Below, piece by piece: positions 4,641 through 20,832 of a DNA stretch of 21,680 bases. The notes under the pieces were generated by a model. The model worked only from the letters and a program-made list of their open reading frames with translations, searched no databases and was not told where the DNA came from. The first letter of the stretch is position 1. The number at the start of each line of letters is the position of its first letter. A program made the translations under genes and the position numbers. Source of the DNA: a virus; IMG/VR virus record IMGVR_UViG_3300032308_001082, positions 1 to 21,680 of that record. One strand, written 5' to 3'.

Positions 4641-4650
4641 AAATTATATT

Positions 4651-5199
4651 TTAATCAAGGGCAGCCATAACGGTTGCGCCATTAACAATAAACCTTGCTT
4701 TTTCGGTTGTTCTGCAAGTTAATGTCAATGTCTCTTGATTTGAATCAGTAAACAAAGCACCTGATAACCCTTCAGCGCTTGTAAGCCTTACTGGTCTCTT
4801 TTTCGCTCCGATAACCTCAGCACCCCACAACCAATAAAGCCCTGTATTTTCAACGTGGACACAAACCAAGCCGCAAGCCTGTCCAGCCATGTCTTGAATT
4901 AAGTTTCTTAACTCTTGGTCACGGCAATTTATAATCCCTGTTAAACTTTGCTCAACCGCAACCGACAAAGTGTCTGGGTCTTGCGTCACCGTTTCAGTAA
5001 ATGCTCCCGAATTATCCCTAAATTCCACCTCGTAAAATACTGAGGCAGTTGATGACATTGTAATCGCTGTTACCGCTGCACTTGAATTAGCAGTAAAACC
5101 AGTAACTTGATTCGCATTAGCGATATAAAGTTTACCGATACCGCCAGCGCAAGTTCCATCGACACATTGATTAAGCCATCCGCTTGTTATTGCACTCAT
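4651..5199 (-). CDS. Probable major tail tube protein
   Basis: This 182-residue protein is beta-rich. The N terminus (GWLNQCVDGTCAGGIGKLYI) and the later pattern YWLWGAEVIGAKKRPVRL, GLSGALFTD, then ETLTLTCRTTEKARFIV, resemble small tail-tube proteins of Bacteroidota siphophages, which share a 'YWL.G...' strand followed by a Gly/Thr-rich loop and a final 'LTF.G.E' strand. If correct, it polymerises into the tube around the tape measure. Its place directly behind the major capsid gene rather than next to the tape measure is odd; a head decoration or head-tail joining protein is the alternative. It starts 12 bases after the capsid stop with the leader TATAAAATAAAT. Confidence 0.45.
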   Translation of the reverse strand: MSAITSGWLNQCVDGTCAGGIGKLYIANANQVTGFTANSSAAVTAITMSSTASVFYEVEFRDNSGAFTETVTQDPDTLSVAVEQSLTGIINCRDQELRNLIQDMAGQACGLVCVHVENTGLYWLWGAEVIGAKKRPVRLTSAEGLSGALFTDSNQETLTLTCRTTEKARFIVNGATVMAALD

Positions 5200-5211
5200 A
5201 TTTATTTTATA

Positions 5212-6195
5212 TTAGTAGCCTACGCTGATTAATGAATGGTGAATATAATTTACACCCATTTTAAAACGAGCCTTAATATACACCTTTTCGTCTTTCTGGT
5301 CGTACCAAAGTTCTAAAGCCGTCTCAGGGCTTAAAACGTCGGTTGCAAGCACCTTGTTTTGTGGTGTTGTATATTCCACATAATGAGGCTTAGTTGTTCC
5401 AAGTGACGTTGCAATGTCATCCCAACGATACTGAGGAATAACGGTTACGCCTCTAAAGGTAAATTGCTCAACTCCGTTAATTAACTGGAGTAAACCGTAA
5501 TCACCGCCACCGCCGTTTTCGATGTCTTCCCTTAACTGAGAATAAACGCTTTGGGTTACATTAAATACCTTTTGGTTAGCTGGTAATCCTTTTAACTGTA
5601 AAGGCGCTTGGTCGTATACCGCACGAAGAATCGCGAAGCCATCACCAGACGCAAGGTCTGCACCTGAGCCTGTGTTAGTTCTTGGAATTAAATCGTCTGC
5701 AACTAACTCAGGATAATAAACTGTCCAAAATCCATCTAAAGAATCATAGTTTGGATTGTTAGATGATTGAGAACCAAAGTAAGACAAACGGGTAATGTCA
5801 TTTCTTATCGCCTGTTGCGTACGGGTTAATAAGATATTTTCAATCAATGTTCCCGAAACATCTGGAAGCCTTGTACCCGTTTTCAATAACTCCTCAAAAA
5901 CCGTGTCTTCAAATTCGTCCCAGCACATTTCTAAATCAACCTTCATTTTTTCAACGTCGATTGTACGCTGATAAATGTCAACCGAGCCAACTGGGTTAAA
6001 TCCACAACCCGAATATTTTCTTACAATATTCTCAAGGTCTTGGACAAATACCATTTTCTTTTTATTGGCGACGTTTCCAAGTACACGGAATTGTCCGCGT
6101 AAATCATCATCGAAAAAGACTGGTTCTAAAAATATGTTATTTGCCTCCGTACCTCTGAAGGATACGTCTAATTGGCTTATTTCAACTGATGGCAT
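5212..6195 (-). CDS. Major capsid protein
   Basis: This 327-residue protein has the size and position of a HK97-fold capsid subunit: it follows the protease/scaffold gene and a small possible decoration gene, and the portal lies downstream. The N-terminal ~50 residues are polar. An E-loop-like basic stretch (NVANKKKMVFVQDLENIVRK) is followed by a long helix region (DEFEDTVFEELLKTG) matching the spine, a Gly/Asn-rich P-domain insertion (NGGGGDYGLLQLINGV), and a C-terminal strand set ending RFKMGVNYIHHSLISVGY. The leader (6214-6196) is A-rich with no Shine-Dalgarno site. No fold prediction was run, so the HK97 fold is inferred from context and overall pattern. Confidence 0.75.
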   Translation of the reverse strand: MPSVEISQLDVSFRGTEANNIFLEPVFFDDDLRGQFRVLGNVANKKKMVFVQDLENIVRKYSGCGFNPVGSVDIYQRTIDVEKMKVDLEMCWDEFEDTVFEELLKTGTRLPDVSGTLIENILLTRTQQAIRNDITRLSYFGSQSSNNPNYDSLDGFWTVYYPELVADDLIPRTNTGSGADLASGDGFAILRAVYDQAPLQLKGLPANQKVFNVTQSVYSQLREDIENGGGGDYGLLQLINGVEQFTFRGVTVIPQYRWDDIATSLGTTKPHYVEYTTPQNKVLATDVLSPETALELWYDQKDEKVYIKARFKMGVNYIHHSLISVGY

Positions 6196-6214
6196 TTGTT
6201 TTTAATTTTAAAGG
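6196..6214 (-). promoter_or_regulatory. A-rich translation leader of major capsid gene
   Basis: The bases before the capsid ATG read CCTTTAAAATTAAAAACAA, with no GGAGG-like element. Similar A/T-rich leaders precede 5199 (TATAAAATAAAT) and 4640 (AATATAATTT). Bacteroidota commonly initiate translation without strong Shine-Dalgarno pairing, aided by A-rich leaders, so this supports the host assignment. The stop codon of the preceding gene (6210-6208) lies within the leader. Confidence 0.5.
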
Positions 6215-6681
6215 TTTGCGTAAGTAATCGTAGCTGTTGTATTTGTCAACTGTGCTGCCGATTCAATAATATATGAAAACTCGGTCTTTGCTCCAGCCTT
6301 AGCGGTTGCAAAGAAAACCTTCCAATCATTTGCGTGATTTAACGCGGTTGTTGAAATGTTAAATGCTGCCGAAGGCGCTGATGAAACAAAACTACCGTAT
6401 GCTTCATGACCACTTTCGTCAATCAAATTAAACTTATAATAATTTGAAGCGGTTGTTACTCCGTAAATCGGTGTAACTGTAAATCTGTCACCTCCTGAGG
6501 CAATATGCCAAGTAAAGGATACAGGAATACGGTCTTCAAATGTATCAACCCCATACAATTTTTCAGCATTTATGCCGTCAACATTAGCATAAGGGTTAGT
6601 ACGATGAAGGCTATTTTGTCCGACGTATGTGTTGGAATCAAGAAAGCCATTTACGTTCTGAGCGGTTGGATTGAATGCCAT
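6208..6681 (-). CDS. Small virion protein before capsid gene, possible decoration protein
   Basis: This 157-residue protein is Ala/Thr/Ser-rich and predicted by eye to be mostly beta strand with no membrane segment. It sits between the protease-scaffold gene (1-base overlap) and the major capsid gene (12-base gap), the usual place for head decoration proteins. The N terminus includes FNPTAQNVNGFLDSNTYVGQ. No family was recognised, so the role is from position only. Confidence 0.5.
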   Translation of the reverse strand: MAFNPTAQNVNGFLDSNTYVGQNSLHRTNPYANVDGINAEKLYGVDTFEDRIPVSFTWHIASGGDRFTVTPIYGVTTASNYYKFNLIDESGHEAYGSFVSSAPSAAFNISTTALNHANDWKVFFATAKAGAKTEFSYIIESAAQLTNTTATITYANL

Positions 6682-7118
6682 TATCTTTGTGAAATTTTAG
6701 ATTTAACTAATGATGCAAAAGAATCAAAAGGACTCAATTTTGCTTTTGTTTCAATAATCTTTTCAGATGTTGTTCCGCCAGAAGGAAGCCCAACACCTTT
6801 TTTTACTTGCGCCCTAAGTGCTACAAGTTCATTTCCCAATGTTTCAAGAACCGTCTCAATCTCATTAATTGAGTTCTTTTGTTCATCAGACTTTTTGTAC
6901 ATTGATTGCATTTCTTCTTGTTGCTTAGTATGGATTGCGTCCATTTCCTCAGGTGACAATACAAAGTAACCTAAATCTTTAAGCATAGTAATAGCAACGT
7001 CGACATCATCGTTTTTAGGTTCTGCTGGCATTACTCCAGGGTCTTGCATAACATCTTGGACTTTATCTTCAGTACTGTTAAGCAAATTTTTAATTTTTTC
7101 TAAAATGGAATTACCCAT
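6681..7118 (-). other. Possible nested in-frame scaffold start
   Basis: ATG at 7118 is in frame with the protease gene and is preceded by AAAAAAGAAGATGAC. Initiation here would give a 145-residue protein beginning MGNSILEKIKNLLN, containing only the coiled-coil scaffold part. Nested scaffolds inside protease genes are known (lambda C and Nu3). The internal start here is an inference. Confidence 0.3.
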
Positions 7119-8060
7119 GTCATCTTCTTTTTTGTTGGTTATTAATAATGCAGCTGGGACATTTAGAAATTTGCTTAGGCTATTTTGCAACGGTAATAAA
7201 TCAATATTTTTTTCGCCAACTTTCACAATCTCATCAATGAAACCAAACTCTAATGCTTCCTGTGCGGTCAACCATGTTTCGGCTGCCATCATTTGTGTAA
7301 TCTTGTTTTCAAGGTCTTTCTGTCTCCCTTTGCGCTTATAAACCGCCGCCGAATAAATGTCCAATAACTTTGCCTCCATCTTATCCAATAATTCCGCCGT
7401 TGCCTCGAGTTCGTCGGCGTTACCCATCGTGTAACTCCAAGGTCGATGAATCATCATAAAAGCGTTCTCAGTCATTTTTACATTATCCGCCGACAACAGT
7501 ACAACCGTTGCAATGCTTGCTACCAAGCCGATTCCTGTCGCCGTTGTTTCGTTTGGGTAGTTAGCAATTAAATCAGCTATTCCCATCCCTTCGGTTACTG
7601 AGCCACCACCAGACGAAATAACCAAATTAATTTCCTCACCCTTTGCGTCGTTAATTTTACTTTTTACAGAATTGTATGAATTAACAGATTCAGAAATTTC
7701 CCCTAAAATATCAATATTATATTTTGCCATCGCTTTGCTTTCCTTTTCTCTTTCAATCTTTTTAAACTTTACCTCAGCCCAATCCCTCATCGCACTTCCG
7801 CCCCATGCGTCGTACATTATTGAACCACATATTTCATTTCCATCTTCATCAAAGTATTTTCCTTGGTCATACGTTTCCGCACGGGAAAGAAAAGAATACG
7901 TTCTTTGGACAGTATCCTCCGACAAGCCTTCGCCGTTTGCGATTTGGTTAGCCCTTAACCAGCCAACACGAGTTCCACAAGATGAACCGTTGTCCTTCTT
8001 ATGGTTTAACGCTTTCCTTGCGTTATTCTTTGCCGTGTCTGGATAGTCCGCGTATGTCAT
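6681..8060 (-). CDS. ClpP-like prohead protease with N-terminal helical module and C-terminal scaffold region
   Basis: The 459 residues form three parts. Residues ~5-96 are a helical phage module (DYPDTAKNNARKALNHKK, SEDTVQRTYSFLSRAE, IMYDAWGGSAMRDWAE) seen in various phage proteins. Residues ~111-280 are an S14 (ClpP-type) protease: INLVISSGGGS, nucleophile Ser182 in GLVASIATV, His205 in MMIHRPW, and ETWLTAQEALEFGFID; the third catalytic residue is not certain. Residues ~310-459 are charged and coiled-coil-like (EMDAIHTKQQEEMQSMYKK), fitting a scaffold. It would guide capsid assembly and cleave the scaffold. Internal Met codons at 7730 (residue 111) and 7118 (residue 315) sit exactly at the two junctions. 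The start is the ATG at 8060, 9 bases after the previous stop. Confidence 0.85.
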   Translation of the reverse strand: MTYADYPDTAKNNARKALNHKKDNGSSCGTRVGWLRANQIANGEGLSEDTVQRTYSFLSRAETYDQGKYFDEDGNEICGSIMYDAWGGSAMRDWAEVKFKKIEREKESKAMAKYNIDILGEISESVNSYNSVKSKINDAKGEEINLVISSGGGSVTEGMGIADLIANYPNETTATGIGLVASIATVVLLSADNVKMTENAFMMIHRPWSYTMGNADELEATAELLDKMEAKLLDIYSAAVYKRKGRQKDLENKITQMMAAETWLTAQEALEFGFIDEIVKVGEKNIDLLPLQNSLSKFLNVPAALLITNKKEDDMGNSILEKIKNLLNSTEDKVQDVMQDPGVMPAEPKNDDVDVAITMLKDLGYFVLSPEEMDAIHTKQQEEMQSMYKKSDEQKNSINEIETVLETLGNELVALRAQVKKGVGLPSGGTTSEKIIETKAKLSPFDSFASLVKSKISQR

Positions 8061-8069
8061 GCAGTAAAT

Positions 8070-8423
8070 TTATTTATTATTATTTTTCTTATTCCTTTTT
8101 TTGCTGATTCCATAGCCAAAGGACTCAGGGTGCTGAATCATGTTATACACGGTTTTTTCGCTTAATCCTGTACGGATACTTATATCTAAAATAGCATTCA
8201 TTTTGCTTTCGTTTTCAAATAAGGCGGCTGGATAAAGTTCCATGACCATAAACTTTGCTATCGTCAAATCTTTTATAATGTTGGTTTTGTAAAGAAAGTC
8301 AATGAGGGTATAAAAGTCTTTTGTTATATTATCCTTATCGCATAATGCTTTAAATTTTTGCAAGATGCTTTCCTGAAATTCAATTAATAATTCCTTATCA
8401 ATGTTATTTTTCTCATTGTTCAT
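8070..8423 (-). CDS. Small HTH-like protein, unknown function
   Basis: This 117-residue, helix-rich protein is Lys/Asn-rich. Near the C terminus, ILDISIRTGLSEKTVYNMIQ reads like a helix-turn-helix (helix, G-L-S turn, recognition helix SEKTVYNMI), followed by a basic tail (ISKKRNKKNNNK). It could bind DNA or RNA, for example as a late-gene regulator, but it lies in a structural block between the tape measure and the protease. It overlaps the preceding 87-aa gene by 11 bases. No specific family recognised. Confidence 0.6.
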   Translation of the reverse strand: MNNEKNNIDKELLIEFQESILQKFKALCDKDNITKDFYTLIDFLYKTNIIKDLTIAKFMVMELYPAALFENESKMNAILDISIRTGLSEKTVYNMIQHPESFGYGISKKRNKKNNNK

Positions 8424-8676
8424 CGCGCCAAAATTGTACTATTTGCCTCATTTTTCCAACTACCTTTGTTCTGCACGCTGGGCAGTTTCTTCTTTCAGGC
8501 TCATAGTTGTTTACAAAGTTGTTATAAATATTAAATAAATAATCCATATCCGACGGGTCAATAGATAAAACCCTGTAAGTCCTGTCAACCGTTGCCATGA
8601 CTTGCGTTTTATATTCATCGGGAATACGCGCCGCAAGTTCACCCCAAATGCTATTTCCTTTCATACAATTGCACAT
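8413..8676 (-). CDS. Small Cys-rich protein, possible zinc site
   Basis: This 87-residue protein starts directly after the tape measure stop (TAA then ATG). It has C2 and C4 at the N terminus (MCNCMKG) and C65 and C68 in NCPACRTKVVGK, which could together form a four-cysteine zinc site joining the two ends. The middle (DPSDMDYLFNIYNNFVNNY) is helical. Function is unknown. Similar short CxxC proteins are known to me from Bacteroidota phage structural regions, but no family name can be given. Confidence 0.6.
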   Translation of the reverse strand: MCNCMKGNSIWGELAARIPDEYKTQVMATVDRTYRVLSIDPSDMDYLFNIYNNFVNNYEPERRNCPACRTKVVGKMRQIVQFWRDEQ

Positions 8677-11600
8677 TTATAAAGTTGCTTTTACTTTTAG
8701 TTTATTCCCCTCAGCTAAATCCCTTGCGATGTCATCGGAAACGACGTAGGCTTTAAGCCTGTCAATTCTATTATTTATTGCGTCGGTCTTTGCCTCAATC
8801 ACTTGTAAAAAGTTGCTTAAATCATTGTTACCTGATATGGCTTGTATCGGTGCAGAAATTGGCGGGACTAAACCACCATCGGCAAATCCTTTTATTCCAA
8901 TGCGCCTAAAGGTAGTTGAACCGCCTAATAAACTTTGTTGGCGTTGGTTCAATACAACCTCACCACGTTTAACGTAGGCAAGTACATTGTCCCCGTTTGA
9001 GCGGGTTGGAATGTTTTGTTTTTGATTAACCCTTTGCCCTGTTACGACGCCACCTTCTGCAAGAGGTTGAGCGATAATTGTAGCCGTTTGTATTCCCGCG
9101 AAAACACCAGCCGCAATGGCTTGAGGTGTTGATAACGGAGGGAAAGGAAATGAATTTAAAGCACGTTGTACCGCCAAAGCACCTTGAATAATTGATTGAA
9201 CAATAGCTATTTTCTTTTCCTGTTTTGCTGCCTTTAGTTGTAATTCTTCTTGTTGCTTGTTTTTTGCCTCAAGTAAAATCCTTTCATTTGCTAATTCCTT
9301 TTCAATTTTCTTTTTTCTTAACCCCGTTGCTTTATCCGCTTTAGCCTCAAGCGTTGCAATGTTAGTTTCGGTTAATTGTATCTGTTTATTTAAAGCTTCT
9401 TCATCTTTTTTAAACTTTGCAGATTGAAGAGTTGAAAATAAATCAGTTAATGCCAAAGCACTTTGACCAGCTAATTCAATATTTTTTTGCCTGTTTTCGT
9501 ATAATTCTTCTTGCGCCTGTTTTTCGTTTTCGATTCTTTTTTGATTTGCATCATTAGACGATTTTATAATATCTTGCTGAACCTTTTTTATTTCCTCAGC
9601 CTCTTTTTTATCTAAATCACTTTGTTTTATACTTTTTAAAGGCGCAACCGTTAATGGTAAGGTTGCTAATTGTTGGGCTTGTTGCAGATTTTTAAGTAAA
9701 TTACCCCTTGATGCGTCGGCTAATATTTGGTTCTGTTGTTCAACCGCTTCTTTAATTTGGTTATTGATTGCATTTAATTTTATGCCTAATTCCTTTTGCG
9801 TTCCAGAACCAACGACGGCTTCGCCAAATGCCTTTTGTAATTTACTTTGTTCTTCCTGTAATTTAGCTAAAGAACCTTCAACAAAAGCCTTTGCAACTTC
9901 TTTGCCAGATTCTGTAGATTCATTTGTGTCTTTGATTGGTCTAAATTGCTTTAATTTATTTTCAAGGACTTTTATTTCTTTATCAACTTTTATATAATCA
10001 CTTTCACCAAAAATAAGGGTTTTCCTTAATGCTCTTTTTTCAGCTAAAGTTTTTTCAATCCCAGCTTCAGTTTTAGTTCTAAATATTAATTCCTGTGCTG
10101 CTCTTTTATCCGAAGCAATTTTATCTTCCTTATTAATTTTTTCTAATTCATTTCTATAAACATCACTATTAGCTTTTAAAGCTGCTTTTAAATTAAAGCC
10201 AGTTGAAAAAAATGTAGTAAATCCCGTAGAAATTGCCTTAAAAGTTGCTGGTAATTTATTAGCTACATCAAGCAATCCAGTTAAAAAATTATTAAAAAAT
10301 GTTTTTGCTCGATTATTTAATAAAGTAAATTCACTTGCAGTATTTCCAAGAAGTTCATTTAATTCTGCTTGACTTTCTTCAAGGACTAAATTACTTTCAT
10401 ATAATGCTTTTTGTTGATTTTGATATTCACTTGTGCTGCCTAATATTTCATTTGTTTTATTTAGAACATCGCCTAAGGATAAAACATATCTTCCAGCATC
10501 TTCACCAGCACCTACAAAAACCGTTGATACCAAGCCTTGCAATTCTTTTCCTGATACTCCAGTCGTTTGAATTTCTTTTGTAACTAAAGCAAGAGCGTCT
10601 CTACCAGTAATGGCATTAGTATTTAAATCAGAAAATAACTTTTCTGTAAAATCCGAACCTAATGCGTCAACAAAAGCATCTTTTACAGATTTTGTCTGCT
10701 CCCTTGTTTGTGTTCCAAATTCTTTAATTGCATCAATTGCTTTATCAGAATAAATACCTTGATTAGCTGAATCAATAGCAATTGCCGTAAATTCAGATAA
10801 ACTAAATCCAGCTTGACCAAGTTGTGATGGATATTCTCGTAAACTTTGTAAAAACTCACCTTGAGCGTCTGCACCTTTTCTAAAACCTAATTCAATTGCA
10901 TTTAAAGCCTCTGGAAAACTAACCCCTAATTCCTTAGATGCAGTATTAGCTGCAACAATAATTTCATTTACGTCTTTGGAATAAGTTGTAGCAATTGCTT
11001 TTGATTGTGATACAAAATCTTGTAATGTCGAGCCTGTGGCTTGTGTGAAATTTTGTACTTGTGCTGATAACTTTCTTGTTTCTTCAACCGTTTGATTAAT
11101 TGTTGCAAATATTTCACTAATAGCACTAAATGCAGTTAAGGCAATGCCAATTGCACCTAAACTTATATTTGCAGCACCCGTTGTCTTTCCAAGCTGGGTT
11201 ATCCCCATACTTAATCCACCAATAGCCCCTGTAACTTGTCCTAATGAACCGCCAAGTTTCGGGAAAAAGTTAGATAATGCTTCAGTATAACCGCCGACGT
11301 TCCTTTGAAATTGTCCAACCGTGGCATCTATTCCCTTTAATCTTTTATCTAAAGCACCAATTGAAACCAATAAGTCCCTTGCCTCCTGAGTGTTATCTTG
11401 TTGCGCGGCTGCTAAATCTTTATATCTTTTTCGCTGGTCATTTAATTCCTTTGATAAGCGGCGGTATGCTCCTTCGCTTTTATCAATACCCGCTATTTCT
11501 TCCTTCCTTAACTTAACTTGTTCCCGCGTGACATCGTTAACCAAAGATTGAGCCGCTTTTAAATCAATTAACTTTTTTTCAAGTTTCTTAATTTCGTCAA

Positions 11601-11724
11601 CATCAGCCGTCTTTTTTAACTCGGCATTTAACTCGGCGATTTGCCTTTTTAGTTGCGTTGCCGTTTCGATTGTTCCCGCTAAACCTTCAATTTCGATTTT
11701 AAAACCTATTACCTTTTCAGCCAT
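8677..11724 (-). CDS. Tail tape measure protein
   Basis: At 1015 residues it is the longest complete gene in the window. It would set tail length and occupy the tube lumen. Residues ~20-135 are a charged coiled coil (TATQLKRQIAELNAELKK). Residues ~155-208 are Gly-rich and hydrophobic (LSMGITQLGK, LGAIGIALTAFSAISEIF), as in many tape measures. A long central helical region is followed by a second Lys/Glu/Gln coiled coil (FKKDEEALNKQIQLTETN), a hydrophobic segment (AIAAGVFAGIQTATIIAQPL), and the common C-terminal pattern GGVVTGQ, RSNGDNVLAYVKRGEVVLNQ. GC content falls in the middle third, about 25-30% in sampled lines against 43-50% towards both ends, which suggests mosaic origin. Confidence 0.9.
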   Translation of the reverse strand: MAEKVIGFKIEIEGLAGTIETATQLKRQIAELNAELKKTADVDEIKKLEKKLIDLKAAQSLVNDVTREQVKLRKEEIAGIDKSEGAYRRLSKELNDQRKRYKDLAAAQQDNTQEARDLLVSIGALDKRLKGIDATVGQFQRNVGGYTEALSNFFPKLGGSLGQVTGAIGGLSMGITQLGKTTGAANISLGAIGIALTAFSAISEIFATINQTVEETRKLSAQVQNFTQATGSTLQDFVSQSKAIATTYSKDVNEIIVAANTASKELGVSFPEALNAIELGFRKGADAQGEFLQSLREYPSQLGQAGFSLSEFTAIAIDSANQGIYSDKAIDAIKEFGTQTREQTKSVKDAFVDALGSDFTEKLFSDLNTNAITGRDALALVTKEIQTTGVSGKELQGLVSTVFVGAGEDAGRYVLSLGDVLNKTNEILGSTSEYQNQQKALYESNLVLEESQAELNELLGNTASEFTLLNNRAKTFFNNFLTGLLDVANKLPATFKAISTGFTTFFSTGFNLKAALKANSDVYRNELEKINKEDKIASDKRAAQELIFRTKTEAGIEKTLAEKRALRKTLIFGESDYIKVDKEIKVLENKLKQFRPIKDTNESTESGKEVAKAFVEGSLAKLQEEQSKLQKAFGEAVVGSGTQKELGIKLNAINNQIKEAVEQQNQILADASRGNLLKNLQQAQQLATLPLTVAPLKSIKQSDLDKKEAEEIKKVQQDIIKSSNDANQKRIENEKQAQEELYENRQKNIELAGQSALALTDLFSTLQSAKFKKDEEALNKQIQLTETNIATLEAKADKATGLRKKKIEKELANERILLEAKNKQQEELQLKAAKQEKKIAIVQSIIQGALAVQRALNSFPFPPLSTPQAIAAGVFAGIQTATIIAQPLAEGGVVTGQRVNQKQNIPTRSNGDNVLAYVKRGEVVLNQRQQSLLGGSTTFRRIGIKGFADGGLVPPISAPIQAISGNNDLSNFLQVIEAKTDAINNRIDRLKAYVVSDDIARDLAEGNKLKVKATL

Positions 11725-11939
11725 TATATTTTTATTTTATTAATGACATCTTTTAAATATGCCATATTAATAATATATTCATTGTTTTGCAAAATACCGC
11801 GTATCAAATTTAAATGAACGATTGAAGCCTTTTGAGCAAGGTAAAACACGCGCCCCGTTTCCTCAATTTCATCATCCAAAATAAAGGTTGAATAAAATTC
11901 AAGAAATATCTTTTTGCCCAATGCCTCTTTATCTTCCAT
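11724..11939 (-). CDS. Small helical protein between tail-tip protein and tape measure
   Basis: This 71-residue protein is helix-rich (KIFLEFYSTFILDDEIEE, then RVFYLAQKASIVHLNLIRGI) and is not recognised. Single-base overlaps on both sides (stop/start sharing) couple it to the 811-aa protein and the tape measure. It has no membrane segment or Cys residues. A tail assembly factor is possible from position, but nothing in the sequence proves it. Confidence 0.6.
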   Translation of the reverse strand: MEDKEALGKKIFLEFYSTFILDDEIEETGRVFYLAQKASIVHLNLIRGILQNNEYIINMAYLKDVINKIKI

Positions 11940-14374
11940 TATCCTTTTGTTACACCGTTTACAACTACTTCATAATTTGCCCCTTCATAATGGGTATTTA
12001 AATCAATAATAATGCTTGAGCCACTAATAATATATTGAACGGTTGGTATTAACTTTTGTCCGTTCATGAATACAAGTACATTTGCATTTGTGTTTGATAC
12101 CTGAGTGATACCCGAATTAGGCGCAAGAACCAAAAGGTTTGTCATTGAATTTAAGAACGGCGTGTAAGACAATTGAATGTTCACCGTTGCCCCGTTTGCA
12201 CCTACCAAGCCGCTGCCCGACCCTGTAACTGTTCCTGATTGAGGCGAAGACCCAGCTAAGGTAATCGTATTAACAACTTTTGTCAAATCATTTGTATTTG
12301 GTTTTTCATCGTAAAGTAAAACCGTTTTGGCTGGGCTATTTGACTTAGGGTTATATTCTAAACTTTGAATTATAAAGTTAGATGAACCTATAATTCCTTT
12401 GCGCCTGAATGAAAGCTGCGTTATATCTTTTGGTTTCCATTTTACAAAGGTTGAATAAACCTTGCCTAATTCTATTCGCTTGTAAGTCTGTAAATGAAAG
12501 GTCTTAAAAATACCTTGCATTACGTTTGTGTAATTTGTAACCTCATCCGAAAAGGATAGGTTAAAATCTGCACCGCTGGGGTCATTGTAATTAACCATGA
12601 ACGCGGCGGGAAAATCAAAAGCCGAAGCAGCCGACGTTGTTTCATCAAACAGTCTTATTTTCCCATCTAAGCCGCCACGCCTTCCAGCGTAATAAAGTAA
12701 ACGAGGCGCAAGATTGTAATTTGGTTCTGCATCGGTCACCGTGTTATAATCGTCGCCAAAGACTAAAGGCATTTGTGCCCCGTATGTTCCTCCCGTGGTA
12801 ATGGCAACATCATTTATATGAATAGCCTTTGCAAAGAACTTTGTATAAATAAATTCAACTCCGTTGTCAAATCTATCAGTTGGAAAATTGTAACCTCCTG
12901 AGTAAATGTTTACCCCGCGTCTTTCTTCTTCCTTGTTTGTTGTATCATCATCCGTGGCATAAGCCAATACCTGACTTGATTTGTAGCCGTCTAAAACTTG
13001 AAAGTCTGAGCCATCAATGTCACGGGTATTTAAATCATATTTGTTTAAACCTTTAAAGAAGCCGTCAAAACTTGTAAGGCTTGCCGCTCCCGTACTATTT
13101 GCCCGATACCTGATAGTATAATCGTCTTTTGGATACGCGTAAACTTGTCGATTTAATACGTCTGTTTCCCATGCAAGGTTAAAAATGGTTGTAAGGTCGC
13201 TAATAATGTCCCTAACATACCATGAAATAGGAATAATGTATTGCAAGTTAACGGTTTCGCCTGTTTCCAATCCCTCTTTTTCTGCCACAACCGACAAAGA
13301 ACCAGCAATAGATAGATTAAAAGATATATTTTCATACCTTAATCTAAGTTTTACTATATCATTTGCCACCAAATCACCCAGAAATTCAAGTGAAATTGAA
13401 TCATTTAGGATTGTTTCATTTGTCAAATCATAGGTTGAAACATTGTTTCCGTTTACCTCAAAAAATAAAATGAGTTCCGCAAATTGGTTTATATCCCCAA
13501 TAGTAGCCGTTAACGTTACATTTAACTCAGCTATTAACTCGTATAAAGCATTTATCGGGACAGTGTAAGTTCCTCCAGTATAATTTCCCCCTGTATCAAA
13601 GTTTGGCGATGTTGTTTCGTCTGTAAAAGTAATATTAACCGTTCCGTTATCACCTGATGAATAAACAAAACTTGAAGGCGAAGGATTTGAAGCCCTGAGA
13701 TTTACAAAGTCTTTGATATAATCGGCGTCAAGGTTTAAACCCATTGGAATAATCAAACGATTAAACGGGTCAGTCTTGAAAATACTATTTAACTGATAAC
13801 CTTTGTCTTTAAAAGCCTTTTCCAATATTTGCCAAATAAAAATAGCTGGGGTTAATTCATTGTATAAAATATAGGTTTCATTTTCCCATGCTTTCCATTT
13901 CATAAGGATAAAACAAAATTCAGACGTTACAGGGTTATAATTTACCTTAACCGTTGTTTCACTTACCTCGATTGTTGACCAGCCTAAATCCCTTACTAAA
14001 ATATTACCTACGTCGGAAAACCAATCCGCATTGTTTCCAATCAATGAGACCTTGAAATTTGAGGCAACAAAACCCGAATTAATCGCCTGTAAATCCGCTC
14101 CTTCTAACCTTGCTTTTCCTGTGAGAATTGGCACGCCGTCGGCTTCAAGCCTTGCGCTTAATAACTTGTAAGCATTGGTTACAATTGCCCCAGCGTCGGT
14201 AATGTTTTGAAATATGTTTACGTTTGTTTTTGTTGCTGGAAGTGTCACATTCCTTTTTGAATGCGCTCCCGATATGTTTCCTAATTCAATGTTTTCAATA
14301 GAATAATCAATCGTTACATTAACCTCGTTTTGGTTTAAGTCAACCTCCTGCCCACCTATAAATAGTTTTATCAT
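11939..14374 (-). CDS. Large tail-tip or baseplate hub-like protein
   Basis: This 811-residue, beta-rich protein begins FIGGQEVDLNQNEVNVTIDY and continues with SGAHSKRNVTLPATKTNVN, a pattern I know from large tail proteins of Bacteroidota phages next to the tape measure. Mid-protein segments (VRDIISDLTTIFNLAWETD, KYDLNTRDIDGSDF) fit a hub that organises the tail tip. The last ~65 residues carry an NGQ module (VFMNGQKLIP, then GANYEVVVNG) like two in the fibre at the far end of the window. It overlaps the 402-aa gene by 4 bases and the 71-aa gene by 1. Role as hub or distal tail protein is inferred. Confidence 0.6.
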   Translation of the reverse strand: MIKLFIGGQEVDLNQNEVNVTIDYSIENIELGNISGAHSKRNVTLPATKTNVNIFQNITDAGAIVTNAYKLLSARLEADGVPILTGKARLEGADLQAINSGFVASNFKVSLIGNNADWFSDVGNILVRDLGWSTIEVSETTVKVNYNPVTSEFCFILMKWKAWENETYILYNELTPAIFIWQILEKAFKDKGYQLNSIFKTDPFNRLIIPMGLNLDADYIKDFVNLRASNPSPSSFVYSSGDNGTVNITFTDETTSPNFDTGGNYTGGTYTVPINALYELIAELNVTLTATIGDINQFAELILFFEVNGNNVSTYDLTNETILNDSISLEFLGDLVANDIVKLRLRYENISFNLSIAGSLSVVAEKEGLETGETVNLQYIIPISWYVRDIISDLTTIFNLAWETDVLNRQVYAYPKDDYTIRYRANSTGAASLTSFDGFFKGLNKYDLNTRDIDGSDFQVLDGYKSSQVLAYATDDDTTNKEEERRGVNIYSGGYNFPTDRFDNGVEFIYTKFFAKAIHINDVAITTGGTYGAQMPLVFGDDYNTVTDAEPNYNLAPRLLYYAGRRGGLDGKIRLFDETTSAASAFDFPAAFMVNYNDPSGADFNLSFSDEVTNYTNVMQGIFKTFHLQTYKRIELGKVYSTFVKWKPKDITQLSFRRKGIIGSSNFIIQSLEYNPKSNSPAKTVLLYDEKPNTNDLTKVVNTITLAGSSPQSGTVTGSGSGLVGANGATVNIQLSYTPFLNSMTNLLVLAPNSGITQVSNTNANVLVFMNGQKLIPTVQYIISGSSIIIDLNTHYEGANYEVVVNGVTKG

Positions 14375-15579
14375 AGTTGCGCCGTTGGTTTATTAGGATA
14401 GGTAATTTCAAAAGATAGTTCAATGTCCGTTGTCCTATTATTATCAGTCAATGTTTCTGCATTAGAAATGGTAACATTGACATACTTACCATTTTCAATT
14501 ATGTACACCTCAGGCGAATAAAACATTGAGGCAATGTAAACAGCGTCCTCATGCGGAACGCTACATTTAACTTGCTTTCTTTTGTTTACCCTTTGATTTG
14601 TCTTAATAATTGTTTTATCATAACTGTTTGCCCGTGGATTAGATACCACGCTCCACGGCTGAGATATGTTTATTATATCTGCATTGGCGTTTTGTAAGTC
14701 TTGTATCAAGCCACGAAATTGATAACTTTCTGCACCTCCATATTTCCCGAACCAATGTAAGTCAATGTTATCATTGCAATTTGGCTCCAGAAAAATATCA
14801 ATGCTTTCAGAACGCTGCGTATAACTCCCATCGTATGAACCAACGGAAACCGAATAAAAATTGTACGCACTTGATGAAGCTGGAAAATTACCCATGTGAA
14901 AGACTGCGGTACTTCCAAAGATGTTAGCCGCACCAACGGACAAAGAATATAAGTTATTGTTAGCTGAGGAAACAACAAAGTCAACAATTGTTTCAGCGCT
15001 TGACCCTGATTTGGTATAAAACAAAAATCTTCCAGCGTTTACCCCTTTGCCGACAAAAGAAAGAAATATATTTCCGTCCTCATTGCATCGCCTGTCTTGG
15101 TTATTAGTGGTAAGGAATTTAAAAGGATTTGCCGACGGCTGATAAAAGTCGCTTAGATTAAAGTCGTTATCGTCCCCGTAAAACTGTGAAGGAATAACAA
15201 AGCCTGTTGAACTAAATTGGCTTGCGGTTGATGTTACAAGGAAGCCCGCACTACTTACCGTTTGATTCTTTGAAACGCAATAGACTGACTTGATAATGTC
15301 TGTGTTATTTGTCAATGAATAGATATCAAGCGTTCCAAAGAAACTTGTCTTTGTTCCTGTAACTGGTGCAACGTCGGAATAAAGGAAAGATTGTACATTG
15401 GTATCAAAGACCGCGCTACTTCCACTTGTTCCCGTTTGAGCGGCAAGAAAAGAACCCGCAAGGCTGCCACCAACGTAAACATCGATTTGCTGCTGAACCA
15501 CCGCTGAAGGCTCAAGGCTGCGATAAGATACAGGATAAAGAAGGCTGCTTAAACTGTCTGGGTTTATCGTGTAACTCAT
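14371..15579 (-). CDS. Tail-tip or distal tail-like protein
   Basis: This 402-residue, Ser/Asn-rich, beta-strand protein has a C-terminal third with DLHWFGKYGGAESYQFRG, then SPEVYIIENGKYVNVTIS and a closing IELSFEITYPN. This resembles tail proteins of Bacteroidota phages that sit beside the hub. The N-terminal half (PVSYRSLEPSAVVQQQIDVY) is less distinctive and may be a fibre-attachment or carbohydrate-binding domain. It overlaps both neighbours by 4 bases (ATGA). Exact place in the tail is not shown by the sequence. Confidence 0.55.
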   Translation of the reverse strand: MSYTINPDSLSSLLYPVSYRSLEPSAVVQQQIDVYVGGSLAGSFLAAQTGTSGSSAVFDTNVQSFLYSDVAPVTGTKTSFFGTLDIYSLTNNTDIIKSVYCVSKNQTVSSAGFLVTSTASQFSSTGFVIPSQFYGDDNDFNLSDFYQPSANPFKFLTTNNQDRRCNEDGNIFLSFVGKGVNAGRFLFYTKSGSSAETIVDFVVSSANNNLYSLSVGAANIFGSTAVFHMGNFPASSSAYNFYSVSVGSYDGSYTQRSESIDIFLEPNCNDNIDLHWFGKYGGAESYQFRGLIQDLQNANADIINISQPWSVVSNPRANSYDKTIIKTNQRVNKRKQVKCSVPHEDAVYIASMFYSPEVYIIENGKYVNVTISNAETLTDNNRTTDIELSFEITYPNKPTAQL

Positions 15580-16106
15580 CTATTTAATATTGATTTGTAA
15601 TAACTTTCAATCGTTGCCTCCACGCTAAAGGTAATTGCATTTTCAATTAATTCAATAAACTTTGCACTATTCTTTTCCAATGCTATTTCTATAAAACCCG
15701 TACGTCGCCCAGTCTTTGAATGCTTTATAACACTATTTTTGGTAGGCATTCCTTCTAATTTATGCTTTGACGCAATAGCAAAAGCGATGCCCTTTGCCTC
15801 TTTGTCACTCTTACCCATTCGCCTTTTGACGTAATCAATTAAGCCGTCAATATACTTACTTGTTTTTCGTCCGCTGCCAGGGTAATAAGGAATCTTATCA
15901 AATGTTACCCCTTGATTATTTATTGCCATGTAATCAGGAACATACCCCTCAATGACAATGGTTGCAATTTCCTCCCTAATTACCGTTTCCATTTGCTTAA
16001 CCGCTGAGCCTGATAACTCATGTCCTTGCGCCCTCCATTCATTCGCCACAACGGTAATGGCTAAAAGGCTAATATCGTCCGCTAACTTTTGTAATCCTAT
16101 TAACAT
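15576..16106 (-). CDS. HK97 gp10-like tail completion or neck protein
   Basis: This 176-residue protein has the length and character of the gp10-like family that joins tail to head: a helical N terminus (AITVVANEWRAQGHELSG), a loop region (YYPGSGRKTSKYIDGL), and conserved-looking basic segments (KHSKTGRRTGFIEIALEK), with a C-terminal helix. It overlaps the upstream tail terminator-like gene by 7 bases and the next by 4. The pair with that gene is the usual neck order. Assignment is by pattern and context; a minor tail protein is the alternative. Confidence 0.5.
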   Translation of the reverse strand: MLIGLQKLADDISLLAITVVANEWRAQGHELSGSAVKQMETVIREEIATIVIEGYVPDYMAINNQGVTFDKIPYYPGSGRKTSKYIDGLIDYVKRRMGKSDKEAKGIAFAIASKHKLEGMPTKNSVIKHSKTGRRTGFIEIALEKNSAKFIELIENAITFSVEATIESYYKSILNR

Positions 16107-16555
16107 TCGCTTTTTATTGAAATACTAAAAGTGGCTTGCACCGTTACCAATCTTTGAATTGAGGCAAAGGAATCCAATACAAGATTTACTTGGTCTGGTA
16201 TGCTATTTGTTGTTTTTGTTGTTCCAAGTTCTAAAATAAACCTTTCAGCGTATGCAATCAGGTTTGACCACTTTGTTATTTGCAAAGTTGTATCAACGTC
16301 CCCATTTTCATCATAGCCTAAAAGGTCATCAAAAAACAAAGTTACTTGATAGGTATCCCTCCGAGTGACTGGGTTATTAGTCAAAGTTGGCACGGCAAAA
16401 AATACCCGTGGGAAAATGTTTGTATTATTTTCGCCTTCTTCCGTATATATTTGAGAACGGACGCGGTCTGATGCCCAGCCGAAGGAAAAGCCGTTTAACC
16501 CTTGAATGGCGTCTGTGGCTGCTTCGAATATATTTGCTAATTGAACTAAACTCAT
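16100..16555 (-). CDS. Tail terminator-like protein
   Basis: This 151-residue alpha/beta protein has an N-terminal helix (SLVQLANIFEAATDAI), strands with PRVFFAVPTL and YQVTLFFDDLLG, and a C-terminal strand pair ending ATFSISIKSEC. This matches the size and outline of proteins that cap the tail tube and connect it to the neck. The ATG at 16555 overlaps the stop of the -1 chaperone extension by 4 bases (ATGA), and the gene overlaps the gp10-like gene by 7. Confidence in the exact role is moderate. Confidence 0.45.
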   Translation of the reverse strand: MSLVQLANIFEAATDAIQGLNGFSFGWASDRVRSQIYTEEGENNTNIFPRVFFAVPTLTNNPVTRRDTYQVTLFFDDLLGYDENGDVDTTLQITKWSNLIAYAERFILELGTTKTTNSIPDQVNLVLDSFASIQRLVTVQATFSISIKSEC

Positions 16556-16827
16556 TTTTTGCTTTTAGATATATCATCGATTACCTTTTCTTCAGCTGCC
16601 TTTGATGCAAGGTATTGAAAGACCTGATACAATTTTGCTTTTTCTGCTGATTCCATAGGTGTATAACCGCTTAAATTAAACAATCCTGACTCAGCCACTT
16701 TCTTTATTGTCAAGTACCAACCGTATTTTTCATTAAGCCTTTCACTTGCTAATTGAGATTTTCCATCGCCCTTTCCAACATAGAGGTCTGTAAATCTAAG
16801 GTATATTTCTCGCTTAACTTGGTCAAA
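16552..16827 (-). CDS. C-terminal extension of tail assembly chaperone made by -1 frameshift
   Basis: This frame encodes 91 residues after slippage (starting FDQVKREIYLRF, including LNEKYGWYLTIKKVAESG, ending DDISKSKK) and stops at TGA 16554-16552. In this frame a TGA at 16842-16840 lies just upstream, so it opens at 16839, immediately before the T9 run. It has no ATG until 16656, near its end. It therefore looks like the T part of a G/GT pair: the fused product would be 359 residues. The NEKYGWY...A pattern resembles downstream chaperone parts in Bacteroidota phages (from memory). TTG at 16713 is a poor alternative start. A missing T in the homopolymer from sequencing is the main rival explanation. 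Confidence 0.75.
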   Translation of the reverse strand, partial: FDQVKREIYLRFTDLYVGKGDGKSQLASERLNEKYGWYLTIKKVAESGLFNLSGYTPMESAEKAKLYQVFQYLASKAAEEKVIDDISKSKK

Positions 16828-17630
16828 AAAAAAGCAACCTCATAGGATGTCTGCAACGACATTTGTAAAAAGTCGACCTTGTTTTGCTCAAAAAGTTCGT
16901 CGCTGTAATCTTCGCCCAATGGTTTTAAAAGAACCGCCATGATGTTTAGCAATCCCTCAGGGTCGCCGTTTTTCACTTGGTTCATTGCCTTATCATATTG
17001 AGCCGCCATTGTAAATTCAAGGAGCGTTGACTTTTCCATCAACCTTTCTGGGAGCGTGTAAACCTTACCGTTAAAATCGTACAGTTGCTTATACTTTGTT
17101 TCGGCTGGTGTATTGATGGCGTTCATTATCTTTCCGTAAATGTAAACAAGGTATTTTAACTCTAAGCTATCTGCCACCTTGCCAAAGCAAGCATCAAGGG
17201 GAATGCCTGTAAAATAGTTTACAACCTTTGCCATGTATGGGTATCTTACATTTGCCTCCCAGACCTCGTCCATAATTTCAAGACGCGTTGTAAGTTCTTT
17301 GTCAAGTTCATTCCATTGGCTTATTAACGATGGTAAGAAACGACGTACATTATCCTTTACTTCATTCTCTTGCAATATTTTACCTAAGTCATAAACAACG
17401 TTTATTTGTTGAACATTTTTTGAATCAACCTTCAACTTCTTTGCATACGGTAAAATCTTTTCATAGACCGCGTCCCGTTCATTCATATATTGAATCGCTT
17501 CAAGTTCAACTTTTGGATGCTCAGGCAAAAGGAACTTGGCAAAGTAGATGTATTGTTCCAATGTTATATCCGCCGCCGTTTCAGGATAATTATACTTGAT
17601 TTGCTTGTTACCGATGTTAAATATTACCAT
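16749..17630 (-). CDS. Probable tail assembly chaperone (zero-frame product)
   Basis: This 293-residue protein is helical. An N-terminal part (PETAADITLEQYIYFAKFLL) is followed by FTGIPLDACFGKV, then KVYTLPERLMEKSTLLEF, DPEGLLNIMAVLLKPLGEDY and TSYEVAFFLTKLSEKY. The 'NIMAVLL...Y' and 'VAFFLTKL' pattern, with a -1 frame opening at a T9 run near the end, fits proteins that bind the tape measure before the tube forms. Family members are often ~130-200 residues, so this is long. Zero-frame translation ends 24 codons after the slippery site. The start shares one base with the upstream stop (TAATG). It lies 5 genes before the tape measure rather than next to it. Confidence 0.55.
   Translation of the reverse strand: MVIFNIGNKQIKYNYPETAADITLEQYIYFAKFLLPEHPKVELEAIQYMNERDAVYEKILPYAKKLKVDSKNVQQINVVYDLGKILQENEVKDNVRRFLPSLISQWNELDKELTTRLEIMDEVWEANVRYPYMAKVVNYFTGIPLDACFGKVADSLELKYLVYIYGKIMNAINTPAETKYKQLYDFNGKVYTLPERLMEKSTLLEFTMAAQYDKAMNQVKNGDPEGLLNIMAVLLKPLGEDYSDELFEQNKVDFLQMSLQTSYEVAFFLTKLSEKYTLDLQTSMLERAMENLN
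16825..16833 (-). other. Slippery site: T9 run for -1 frameshift
   Basis: The minus strand reads GCT TTT TTT TTG in the zero frame, giving both T_TTT_TTT and T_TTT_TTG, which are canonical X_XXY_YYZ heptamers. The -1 frame is closed by TGA nine bases upstream of the run (16842-16840) and then open for 96 codons. AGG lies 5 bases upstream (ATGAGGTTGC). I saw no convincing downstream stem-loop. Confidence 0.7.
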
Positions 17631-17926
17631 TATCTTCTCCTTGCTTTTTTGGTTACTACGGGAATGTTATCGGCTAATAAATCGCCATTGGTTTCGGTTG
17701 TTGTAGGTATAAAAGGAATCGGCTCTGCTTTGGCGTGGCTGACAATCGGAAGGCTGGGCGGTCGTGACCATTCCCTTTTAATTCCGTTCCCTGTGAGCTT
17801 CACGGCTTTTTCAAGGTGACTTCGCATTTGTAATAAACGCTTTCTTTGCATTGGCTTATCAATGATTTCTTGCGTAATCTTTTCGATTAAATCAATGATA
17901 ATTATCGCCTTTTCTTTATCTGTCAT
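17630..17926 (-). CDS. Small unknown protein after terminase
   Basis: This 98-residue protein has a helical N-terminal half (KAIIIIDLIEKITQEIIDK, then RLLQMRSHLEKAVKL) and a Pro-rich, probably disordered C-terminal half ending in basic residues (KKARRR). It begins 11 bases after the terminase stop and couples to the chaperone gene by a 1-base overlap. Not recognised. It may be a small tail or packaging accessory protein. Confidence 0.6.
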   Translation of the reverse strand: MTDKEKAIIIIDLIEKITQEIIDKPMQRKRLLQMRSHLEKAVKLTGNGIKREWSRPPSLPIVSHAKAEPIPFIPTTTETNGDLLADNIPVVTKKARRR

Positions 17927-17937
17927 GTTTCTTTATT

Positions 17938-19167
17938 TTAATTAAATGCAAGTAAATCGCTGCCTTGCGCCAGCCTTGAAAATATATACCTAAGGGAATC
18001 GCACCCGTGGTTATCTGCGTCTAAGGGCGTGGAAGATTTGCGGTCATTCCAAATATAATTCCTTAACTCATGCTTTAAATTATACGACTCAGGCGTTACA
18101 ACAATGGTATAATCCAGCATTTTCTTTATGCCCTCAACGATTGAACCAGCCCCTTTGTCTGCCTTTTGCACATTCAAGCCTCTTTGCTGCAAAGCCTCAA
18201 TCAAACGTGGTTCACTTGTATCCGCGATTATCAAAGTGTTGGGACTAACATAATGATTCATTTGCTCAATGACTGCCTCGTATGAAAGGGATTGTTTATA
18301 AATAATTTCTTCAACGTATATTTTCTTTGCCCCTTTGTCAACTGCCACCTTGACAAGTGCCAACGGGTCAGGGTAGAATCCAAAGTCTAAGCCGTAACCA
18401 AACGGAAGGCTAATATCGAACTTCCCCTCAACCCAATTGTCAAATATTACCCCTTGTTTCCTATCCAGCCATTTACCTAAAAACCTATGAGCGTATGCCT
18501 CTGGTGACTTGCCCTTAATGGCTTCAATCTTTGCTATGTAATCTTTGCTTAGGTTGTGGTAATTATCAAAGTACGTCGTATGTATGTGCGTTATATCTGC
18601 GTGTGTACTTATAGGAATCATTTGCCCGTCAATGGTTTCCATGCGATGCGATTTTTCAAACCACCGTTTCCAAATCCAATGCTCCACGTCCTGAGGGTTC
18701 ATGACAAGTATTACAATGTTTGGGGTGTCAGGCATCCTGATTGATTCATCTATTGTATCAAAGTCCTTTTCGCTTACAAATTCTTCAGCCTCATCAACGA
18801 TGAACACGTTTAACGCTGGTATTGATTTTAACTTTGCCGTTTGATTTCCAGAACTTGTTTTGATACCTGAGAATATTATTTCACTCCCTGTTACTTTGTG
18901 GCTTATTTGCGCGTTGGTCATTTGAAATTCATCAGCAACCCCTAACAAATCAATTTTTTCACGGAACTCAGGAATAACGGAAATGTTAGCACTTGATAAG
19001 GTGTAACGCGTAAAAAGTACCTTCCAACCTTTGTTGGCTAAAAGCATATTACAAGCCCAAAGCCCAACGGTAAATGACTTAGCCGAACCACGTCCCCCAG
19101 TAATAAGGAAGTAACGGGTTTTAGGTTGCCAAAGGGCTTCGTACTTTTCGCTAACCTTTATCTGCAT
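17938..19167 (-). CDS. terL: Terminase large subunit
   Basis: This 409-residue DNA-packaging motor has an N-terminal ATPase with Walker A GGRGSAKS (residues 24-31) and Walker B VFIVDEAEE (D125, E126). The C-terminal RNase H-like nuclease shows three acidic positions: D261 in GLDFGFYPDP, D316 in IIADTSEP and D390 in HGCDSLRY. Length and motifs fit the Terminase_3/PBSX-type large subunits. It docks at the portal, pumps DNA into the prohead and cuts concatemers. It starts 17 bases inside the small-subunit gene. The sequence appears intact. Confidence 0.95.
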   Translation of the reverse strand: MQIKVSEKYEALWQPKTRYFLITGGRGSAKSFTVGLWACNMLLANKGWKVLFTRYTLSSANISVIPEFREKIDLLGVADEFQMTNAQISHKVTGSEIIFSGIKTSSGNQTAKLKSIPALNVFIVDEAEEFVSEKDFDTIDESIRMPDTPNIVILVMNPQDVEHWIWKRWFEKSHRMETIDGQMIPISTHADITHIHTTYFDNYHNLSKDYIAKIEAIKGKSPEAYAHRFLGKWLDRKQGVIFDNWVEGKFDISLPFGYGLDFGFYPDPLALVKVAVDKGAKKIYVEEIIYKQSLSYEAVIEQMNHYVSPNTLIIADTSEPRLIEALQQRGLNVQKADKGAGSIVEGIKKMLDYTIVVTPESYNLKHELRNYIWNDRKSSTPLDADNHGCDSLRYIFSRLAQGSDLLAFN

Positions 19168-19465
19168 CCTTTGTAAATATTATCGTTGGTACGGTCACTT
19201 TTTCCCCTTGCGTCGTTATGTCAATGTTCTGCTTGCTTTTCCCGTAAGCACGGTCAAGGAGCAACTGAGCCGCCTTAATGTCACCCTTTGCCGCCTGTTC
19301 ACGAAGCTTCATGATAATTGCCTCGGCTGCGCTGATACCGTCCTTTTCCTGTCCCATAACATTAGCCATAATATGGTCAAGGGCGGGAAGCTTCTTGGGA
19401 CGTCCGTTAGGGTTGCCTGTTTCTCCTTTCTTAAACTTTGTATGTTCAGGTGGTTTGCCTTTCAT
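19151..19465 (-). CDS. terS: Terminase small subunit (DUF5681-like)
   Basis: From ATG 19465 the protein has 104 residues and begins MKGKPPEHTKFKKGETGNPN with GRPKK following, the signature start of DUF5681 proteins that precede large terminases. It then has a helical part (AAEAIIMKLREQAAKGDIK, AAQLLLDRAYGKSKQNID). It would recognise the packaging site and load the large subunit. An in-frame ATG at 19522 would add 19 residues but overlap the TAGT gene by 47 bases. The 19465 start lies 10 bases after that gene's stop with A-rich TTAAAACAGGGAAA before it, so I prefer it. Confidence 0.75.
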   Translation of the reverse strand: MKGKPPEHTKFKKGETGNPNGRPKKLPALDHIMANVMGQEKDGISAAEAIIMKLREQAAKGDIKAAQLLLDRAYGKSKQNIDITTQGEKVTVPTIIFTKDADKG

Positions 19466-19475
19466 TTTCCCTGTT

Positions 19476-20252
19476 TTAACCCTGTTTAAGAATTGGTTTT
19501 TTAAAAACTTTCCAATCAACAAAATGATGAATACGATTAAAACGTATTACAGTTTTTGCATATTGCGGCCATTGAGCCTCCAACATTTTTGCTTTTAAAA
19601 GTTTCTTTTTTGGGTCATTCCCCTTATATAATTCATCTTGATTACCTCCTTTCATTTTTTTAGATGTACTTATTTTATTCATTGTATAATAAACACAACT
19701 TGCAGTACTGCCTCCATTATGTAAAACTTGTAAACACAAATCTACGTCCTCATTATATTTTAATCTCCAACGATAAGGTAAATTATTTTTTATCAACAAT
19801 GCTGAATATATATGACAATTATGTTTAAAAGGATGTTTAGGTATTTTACGAACAAAATTGTATTCCTCAAATCCTCCTAAATCAATATTGTTTTTTAATG
19901 TGTAGTTTTCAATATAATTTAATGCTGTTTTTATGTCTTTGACTTGTGTTCTTTTTGCATTAATCCATTTATAAAAACTTGTAATATTATCGTCAAACAA
20001 CCAATGATAAATATGTCCTAAATTTTTTGCGTGTTCCCAGCAAAAATTTCTTGCTGGATAACTTCCAAGACCTAAATTAGAGAAAGGTAATTTTAATAGT
20101 CTATGAACACCAACTTTATTAGCATATAAATCAAATTCTTGAGGTTCAACCGCAATTAAATAATCAATATTAGCTTCTTCAAATCTATCTGCAGTCATTG
20201 TAACATCAAATCTTCCTTTACTAATTATGTAAACAGGATATTTATTTTGCAT
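19476..20252 (-). CDS. TET-associated-type glycosyltransferase (TAGT), DNA-base modification candidate
   Basis: This 258-residue protein matches the TAGT family (GT-A fold, related to the GREB1 C-terminal domain), recognised from a series of family landmarks: YPVYIISKGR at the N terminus, IAVEPQEFDLYA, YPARNFCWEHA, HWLFDDNITSF (D87-D88-N89, likely nucleotide-sugar/metal motif), RWRLKYNEDVDLCLQVL (E168, D169, D171), and FNRIHHFVDWKVF at the C terminus. Family members are thought to glycosylate modified bases in phage DNA. No TET/JBP oxygenase or base-hydroxymethylating enzyme is in the window, so the base substrate is unknown. Sampled lines show about 22-37% GC against ~40-50% in flanking genes. 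It starts 11 bases inside the ParB-like gene. Confidence 0.75.
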   Translation of the reverse strand: MQNKYPVYIISKGRFDVTMTADRFEEANIDYLIAVEPQEFDLYANKVGVHRLLKLPFSNLGLGSYPARNFCWEHAKNLGHIYHWLFDDNITSFYKWINAKRTQVKDIKTALNYIENYTLKNNIDLGGFEEYNFVRKIPKHPFKHNCHIYSALLIKNNLPYRWRLKYNEDVDLCLQVLHNGGSTASCVYYTMNKISTSKKMKGGNQDELYKGNDPKKKLLKAKMLEAQWPQYAKTVIRFNRIHHFVDWKVFKKPILKQG

Positions 20253-20832
20253 ATTTTGTACTTAAATTAACGTGCCATACTCCCACATCATCGCCACCAA
20301 ATTTTTTATAATCATATTTCATATTATTTTTTTCATACCATTCAATTGCTTTATCTTCACTATCAAAAATAAAAATAATACGATGTAATCCTTTGGAAGT
20401 TCCTACGGGGTCAAACTCTTCATTTATATCTAATTCATCTTCATTCATTGTATTTAATTCTGACCCAGCCGACCAATTAGGTATATCCAAGCCCCATGCC
20501 TCCAAGTCAACAACCTCCCAATCGTTAGCAAGTGTGTCCCAGTCCCATTCACCAAATGCTACATTGTCCGCAATGATAAACCGTTTCTTTTCTTCCTCGG
20601 TTAAATCGCTGCTTCGTTTTACCCATGCCTCATCAATGTCATTAAATCCAAGTTCTTTTAAAGCCCTAAGCCTCATATTACCTCCAAGCACCACGTTGTT
20701 TTCATCAATGACCATAGGGCGAAGGGAAAGCATCTTTGGAAACTCCGTGATACTTTGCTTTAGCTTTTGAAACTTGTCATCCCTGAGAACCCGTGGGTTG
20801 TTCGGGTTGGGTTTTATATCTTTTAGTTTCAT
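20242..20832 (-). CDS. ParB/sulfiredoxin-like domain protein
   Basis: This 196-residue protein opens with a ParB/Srx-like domain: IKPNPNNPR (residues 6-14), VIDENNVVLGGNMRLRALKE (41-60) with the GGNxRxRA core, then a helical part (LTEEEKKRFIIADNVAFGEW). Residues ~145-196 form a separate small region (RIIFIFDSEDKAIEWYEKNN, DDVGVWHVNLS). ParB-like proteins in phages accompany methyltransferases and base-modification enzymes; partition is unlikely here because no ParA or centromere is seen. The start overlaps the GT-B gene by 4 bases and the end overlaps the TAGT gene by 11. GC drops from ~53% to ~30% near 20460, inside the gene. Role in the modification system is inferred. Confidence 0.75.
   Translation of the reverse strand: MKLKDIKPNPNNPRVLRDDKFQKLKQSITEFPKMLSLRPMVIDENNVVLGGNMRLRALKELGFNDIDEAWVKRSSDLTEEEKKRFIIADNVAFGEWDWDTLANDWEVVDLEAWGLDIPNWSAGSELNTMNEDELDINEEFDPVGTSKGLHRIIFIFDSEDKAIEWYEKNNMKYDYKKFGGDDVGVWHVNLSTKYAK

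Follow-up and report, generated by a model that had tools for sequence, protein, structure and literature searches.

The minus-strand gene of 293 codons analysed here, which lies in a 21,680-nucleotide stretch of viral DNA (hereafter the window), almost certainly undergoes recoding, since sequence comparison reveals two conserved reading frames joined at an invariant run of T's. We attribute the slip mainly to RNA polymerase, that is, to transcription, as the best explanation of the data (probability roughly 0.55), and the short protein and its extended form are most likely the G/GT-type pair of a siphophage, a tail assembly chaperone.

The coordinates of the gene, of its slip site and of the neighbouring genes are collected in Table 1. 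Past the stop codon just 5′ of the run, the -1 frame (referred to here as T, as opposed to the zero-frame G) stays open for 95 sense codons, up to the TGA that overlaps the start of the next gene, and its earliest ATG is at 16656. The preliminary description had reported the register of the run, this upstream stop, the ATGA overlap and the position of the ATG, all of which were exact on re-checking, and the products that it gave, G of 293 residues and a fused GT of 359 (268 + 91), follow from the sequence. On the coding strand of the window, no other T run reaches nine. Products of messages carrying U8 or U11 would be terminated at once by the +1 stop.

Table 1 Features of the recoded gene and its surroundings in the window
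Feature	Position	Strand	Basis or remark
Tape measure protein	8677–11724	-	PF10145 PhageMin_Tail, E 3.4e-9; about 5 kb downstream of G/T
Next gene, 151 aa	16100–16555	-	ATGA shared by its start codon and the stop of T
T, the extension in the -1 frame: 91 aa past the slip (FDQVKRE...KSKK)	16552–16827	-	Stop TGA 16554-16552
Zero-frame gene (G), 293 aa	16749–17630	-	Open reading frame; stop TAG 16751-16749
Dual-coded overlap, zero and -1 frames	16752–16824	-	
+1 frame stop TGA	16823–16825	-	Formed with the last T of the run
T9 slippage run, GCT TTT TTT TTG	16825–16833	-	Sequence; in-register heptamers U UUU UUU and U UUU UUG
-1 frame stop TGA closing the -1 open reading frame	16840–16842	-	Just 5′ of the T9 run
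Terminase large subunit	17938–19167	-	PF04466, TIGR01547; just upstream of a 98-aa gene and G

The preliminary description had proposed that homologues be aligned, and the alignment bore it out: the slippery run and the protein sequence in both frames are conserved, and, where the -1 frame alone codes, the median dN/dS among the window's relatives was 0.11, well below 1, with values of 1.8 and 2.8 in the control frames. In the same -1-only stretch, third positions were variable at 44 of 50. Synonymous change was depressed in the dual-coded overlap, where pS was 0.17–0.23 as against 0.46–0.58 in the single-coded parts. With the 293-aa protein as the query, viral contigs yielded 61 loci, and T9 followed by a homologous -1 extension was found in each of the 54 whose slip region was scanned, as well as in the window itself; the extension used alone as a query yielded 66 loci. 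All 163 matches to the YGWYLTI domain in the relatives' fetched DNA have a T9 upstream. The -1 open reading frame was conserved in every relative tested, the conserved domain 3′ of the run at related sites being 84–96 residues long and devoid of a start codon, and no frame-fusing indel occurred among the sequences compared. Of the 56 T9 runs in 588 kb of the relatives' DNA, 55 are the slip site. Coding-strand runs in this DNA numbered 807 for T5, 150 for T6, 18 for T7, 5 for T8 and 56 for T9; we do not claim that T runs are avoided elsewhere in these genomes, as the counts drop roughly geometrically from T5 to T8.

We found 203 unique related sites, which form 63 clusters at 70% identity, and the run was T9 in 178 of them, T10 in 25 and shorter in none. 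It occurs in codon phases 0, 1 and 2, and U UUU UUU is in register at every one of these sites. When the two Phe codons are preceded by an Ala, Gly, Ser or Asp codon, which has no T in second position, the next codon is always TTG; when they are preceded by a Val, Leu or Ile codon, what follows is TAY or TGG (giving T9) or TTG (giving T10), mostly the former. Combinations of flanking codons that yield T8, which would still hold the ribosomal heptamer in register, were absent among the related sites. On the tree, at least 8 changes of configuration are needed, all of them retaining nine or ten T's, and only 2 affect the state of the upstream codon, too few for a formal test of significance. A Fisher test on the flanking codons gave p = 2e-7, which we do not use as proof; the tree holds just 2–4 changes of those states. 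A +1 frame stop lies 0–3 codons past the run in 63/63 clusters and is lacking in a further relative (L295), and such stops may arise as a side effect of the conservation of dual-coded residues, since other offsets peak too. No stimulatory RNA structure emerged: the downstream z-scores of 13 folded sites scattered around zero, from -2.3 to +1.7, and the consensus fold of 20 sequences comprised 10 weak pairs, mostly within the T run or in invariant dual-coded columns.

Could the two frames be expressed without any slip? The T part of Nonlabens phage P12024S is annotated as a small gene of its own, as would be expected if the downstream part were a separate gene with its own start, but the protein is conserved all the way to the T run, an ATG is missing from the interval between the run and the -1 stop 5′ of it in 61 of the 63 clusters, and relatives do not keep the internal Met (16656-16654; TPM/TPL/TAI), which makes this reading very improbable. 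Less probable still is a sequencing error, or a phase-variable tract that toggles the fusion at the level of DNA: homopolymers are prone to both, yet about 200 independent sequences, separately sequenced isolates among them, agree in the length of the run, and T9 differs from T10 by substitutions in the flanking codons, not by frame-changing indels. Of the findings that the preliminary description had named as fatal to a slip, the homologues showed neither frames fused by a change in run length nor a downstream part set apart as a gene under a conserved start of its own. What that description had called a programmed -1 ribosomal frameshift holds as conserved -1 recoding that gives a short and an extended protein; its placement at the ribosome is less secure, as the invariance of T9/T10 fits RNA polymerase slippage at least equally well. 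A purely ribosomal -1 frameshift in the style of lambda G/GT, on U UUU UUU (or U UUU UUG) and with the extra T's kept by the overlapping proteins, is nevertheless a serious competitor, to which we give somewhat less than an even chance. In those chaperones of this type that have been characterised, GT arises by ribosomal frameshifting (PMC5009743); all 203 sites have the heptamer in register; a typical A AAT TTT heptamer stands at a likely counterpart in Riemerella phage RAP44; and the flanking T's may indeed be retained by the two overlapping proteins. However, 7 or 8 T's would suffice for a ribosome and 0/203 sites have them, the sites folded gave no stem-loop or pseudoknot signal, and the customary stimulator upstream would be missing, Shine-Dalgarno signals reportedly not being read by Bacteroidia ribosomes (PMC9976891).

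We place transcriptional slippage slightly ahead of purely ribosomal frameshifting. Two properties of the run are those of a transcriptional slippage site, namely a conserved A/T homopolymer of about nine or more and independence from codon phase. Polymerase slippage is efficient at runs of 9 A/T, the RNA:DNA hybrid measuring 9–10 bp (PMC5009743), insertion sequence (IS) elements exploit runs of 9A or 9T (PMC1088944), and the E. coli polymerase inserts bases at 5–10% on T7/T8 (PMC6260861). The site resembles the known cases of transcriptional slippage at nine A/T (Thermus dnaX, Shigella mxiE/spa13 and IS elements; PMC5009743, PMC1088944) in that a homopolymer of nine is the sole conserved signal, downstream structure is absent and a stop in the third frame is nearby; it differs in that those cases are cellular or IS genes, none of them a tail chaperone in the literature searched, whereas the present site is a candidate. 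Under transcriptional slippage, one extra U (U10) added in the 9–10 bp rU:dA hybrid would allow the T frame to be read by ordinary translation. The majority of messages, or of ribosomes, would yield the 293-aa G, and a minority would slip at T9 to give the 359-aa GT fusion. Given that U UUU UUU is in register in every T9 and that both kinds of slip yield the identical 359-residue protein, ribosomal -1 slippage on this heptamer may contribute as well. More broadly, we see an even chance that a large group of Bacteroidota siphophages produces its chaperone fusion through programmed slippage of RNA polymerase and not of the ribosome, the T run being held at 9–10 because this is the length of the RNA:DNA hybrid, so that the G:GT ratio would be set at transcription.

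The assignment as a tail assembly chaperone, made already in the preliminary description, is a probable one that draws on the logic of the G/GT pair, on the nearby tail genes and on the domain read in the -1 frame; searches of Pfam, PHROGs, NCBIfam and the PDB yielded no annotated chaperone relative. The overall pattern, a short protein with a minority -1 extension that carries a compact helical domain, followed downstream by tail genes and a tape measure, is the one known from the G/GT tail assembly chaperone (PMC5009743). Searches of the PDB by sequence and by fold returned no convincing relative of solved structure. The AlphaFold model of G (mean pLDDT 79.8) matched unnamed phage proteins in a fold search, including P12024S gp38 (E 8.8e-5, probability 1.0), and a protein annotated as a tail assembly chaperone appeared only as a weak match (E 0.51, probability 0.60); that known chaperones are missing from the lists of the PDB searches is not evidence for a different fold.

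Lambda G is roughly 140 residues long, and the slippery heptamer of lambda is GGGAAAG. The window's G, by comparison, has 293 residues, an invariant T9/T10 as its slip site and no detectable sequence relation to lambda G/GT. Common to the window gene and to lambda G/GT with its relatives are a short protein and a rarer -1 extended one, a slip near the 3′ end, a C-terminal T domain and tail genes downstream. The conserved zero and -1 frames joined at the run indicate that one gene gives a short protein and one extended in the -1 frame near its 3′ end, and the slip site contains an in-register X XXY YYZ heptamer (U UUU UUU). By analogy with lambda, the C-terminal -1 domain of GT would recruit tail-tube subunits to a tape measure coated with G. 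The lambda G/GT chaperone is a product of ribosomal frameshifting in the case of GT (Xu, Hendrix and Duda 2004, as cited in PMC5009743). Whereas a lambda-type gene is flanked by those for the major tail protein and the tape measure, the window's G follows the terminase and a 98-aa gene, an unusual place about 5 kb upstream of the tape measure; the position far upstream of the tape measure had been pointed out before and is correct.

In the order of transcription, the minus strand encodes the small and large terminase subunits, the 98-aa gene, the 293-aa gene, the 151-aa gene (positions 16100-16555, without a match in PHROGs, Pfam or NCBIfam), further genes and the tape measure, with the head genes (protease, capsid and portal) 3′ of it. 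We read the capsid and small terminase assignments from position and size. The resulting order across positions 2-19522 is unusual: the terminase comes first, the tail module including the tape measure second, and protease, capsid and portal last, with every gene of the series encoded on the minus strand. Just upstream of the terminase genes lie a ParB-like nuclease-like gene (20242-20832) and a glycosyltransferase-like gene (19476-20252); ParB-like genes are annotated at the same place in Riemerella and Bacteroides phages.

The 293-aa gene codes for a member of a large phage protein family that carries no annotation (family A), with relatives down to about 25–29% identity. One relative of 25% identity (L176), together with more distant matches, leads to a second, divergent family B, of which one scan recovered 491 relatives and a second at least 579, and every G-based family B relative whose site was covered has T9 or T10. 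The T domains of the two families are homologous (hhalign probability 96.4%, E 1.2e-9), and the alignment of their G parts is weak (77.7%). Two isolates, Nonlabens phages P12024S and P12024L, share the feature, annotated as two hypothetical proteins; in P12024S the gene directly follows the terminase, the run reads CTT TTT TTT TAT (T9) and the -1 domain is only partly annotated, as the separate hypothetical gene mentioned above. PHROG 32199 and PHROG 38404 match the G and T parts of family B (P12024S gp38/gp39); they represent the same parts, with T9, but are listed as two unknown families with the fusion un-annotated. In cellular genomes, we found no confirmed match to the window's family, and family B was present on one contig, from a Bacteroidetes metagenome-assembled genome (MAG). 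The earlier suggestion of an undescribed instance in Bacteroidota phages is supported, the family being un-annotated and linked to them, although the host range rests on few links. The literature searched, with subscription papers outside its coverage, yielded no description of this family or of a tail chaperone made by transcriptional slippage.

These results give a widespread phage group its likely tail chaperone, present in databases as two unrelated unknown proteins, and correct the annotation in isolates and in hundreds of viral contigs. They also offer a natural experiment on how the G:GT ratio is regulated, a problem known for long. Should the slip take place at transcription, RNA polymerase would tune tail assembly in these phages, a possible reason being that Shine-Dalgarno stimulators go unread by Bacteroidota ribosomes.

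Possible slip sites were also seen in other phages. In Riemerella phage RAP44 (NC_019490; L193, region of 15385), the A AAT TTT motif marks a likely, un-annotated -1 frameshift whose 90-aa extension resembles a T domain; the tape measure follows a few genes later. One gene of Flavobacterium phage 11b (NC_006356; L194, 18173) ends shortly after an A9 run with a G behind it and has a -1 extension of 117 aa; the gene stands immediately before a large gene, possibly the tape measure, and may hold another slip site of nine bases. Flavobacterium phage 6H gp10 (L192, 10352-10927) is a weak fold relative of G in which the frames seem to change more than once, which could reflect a different recoding or sequencing error. 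Finally, the terminase match in OQ791282, ‘Shigella phage Henu10’ (hit H20), is identical in coordinates and score to that in Riemerella phage vB_RanS_PT15, and the host label of the former may be wrong.
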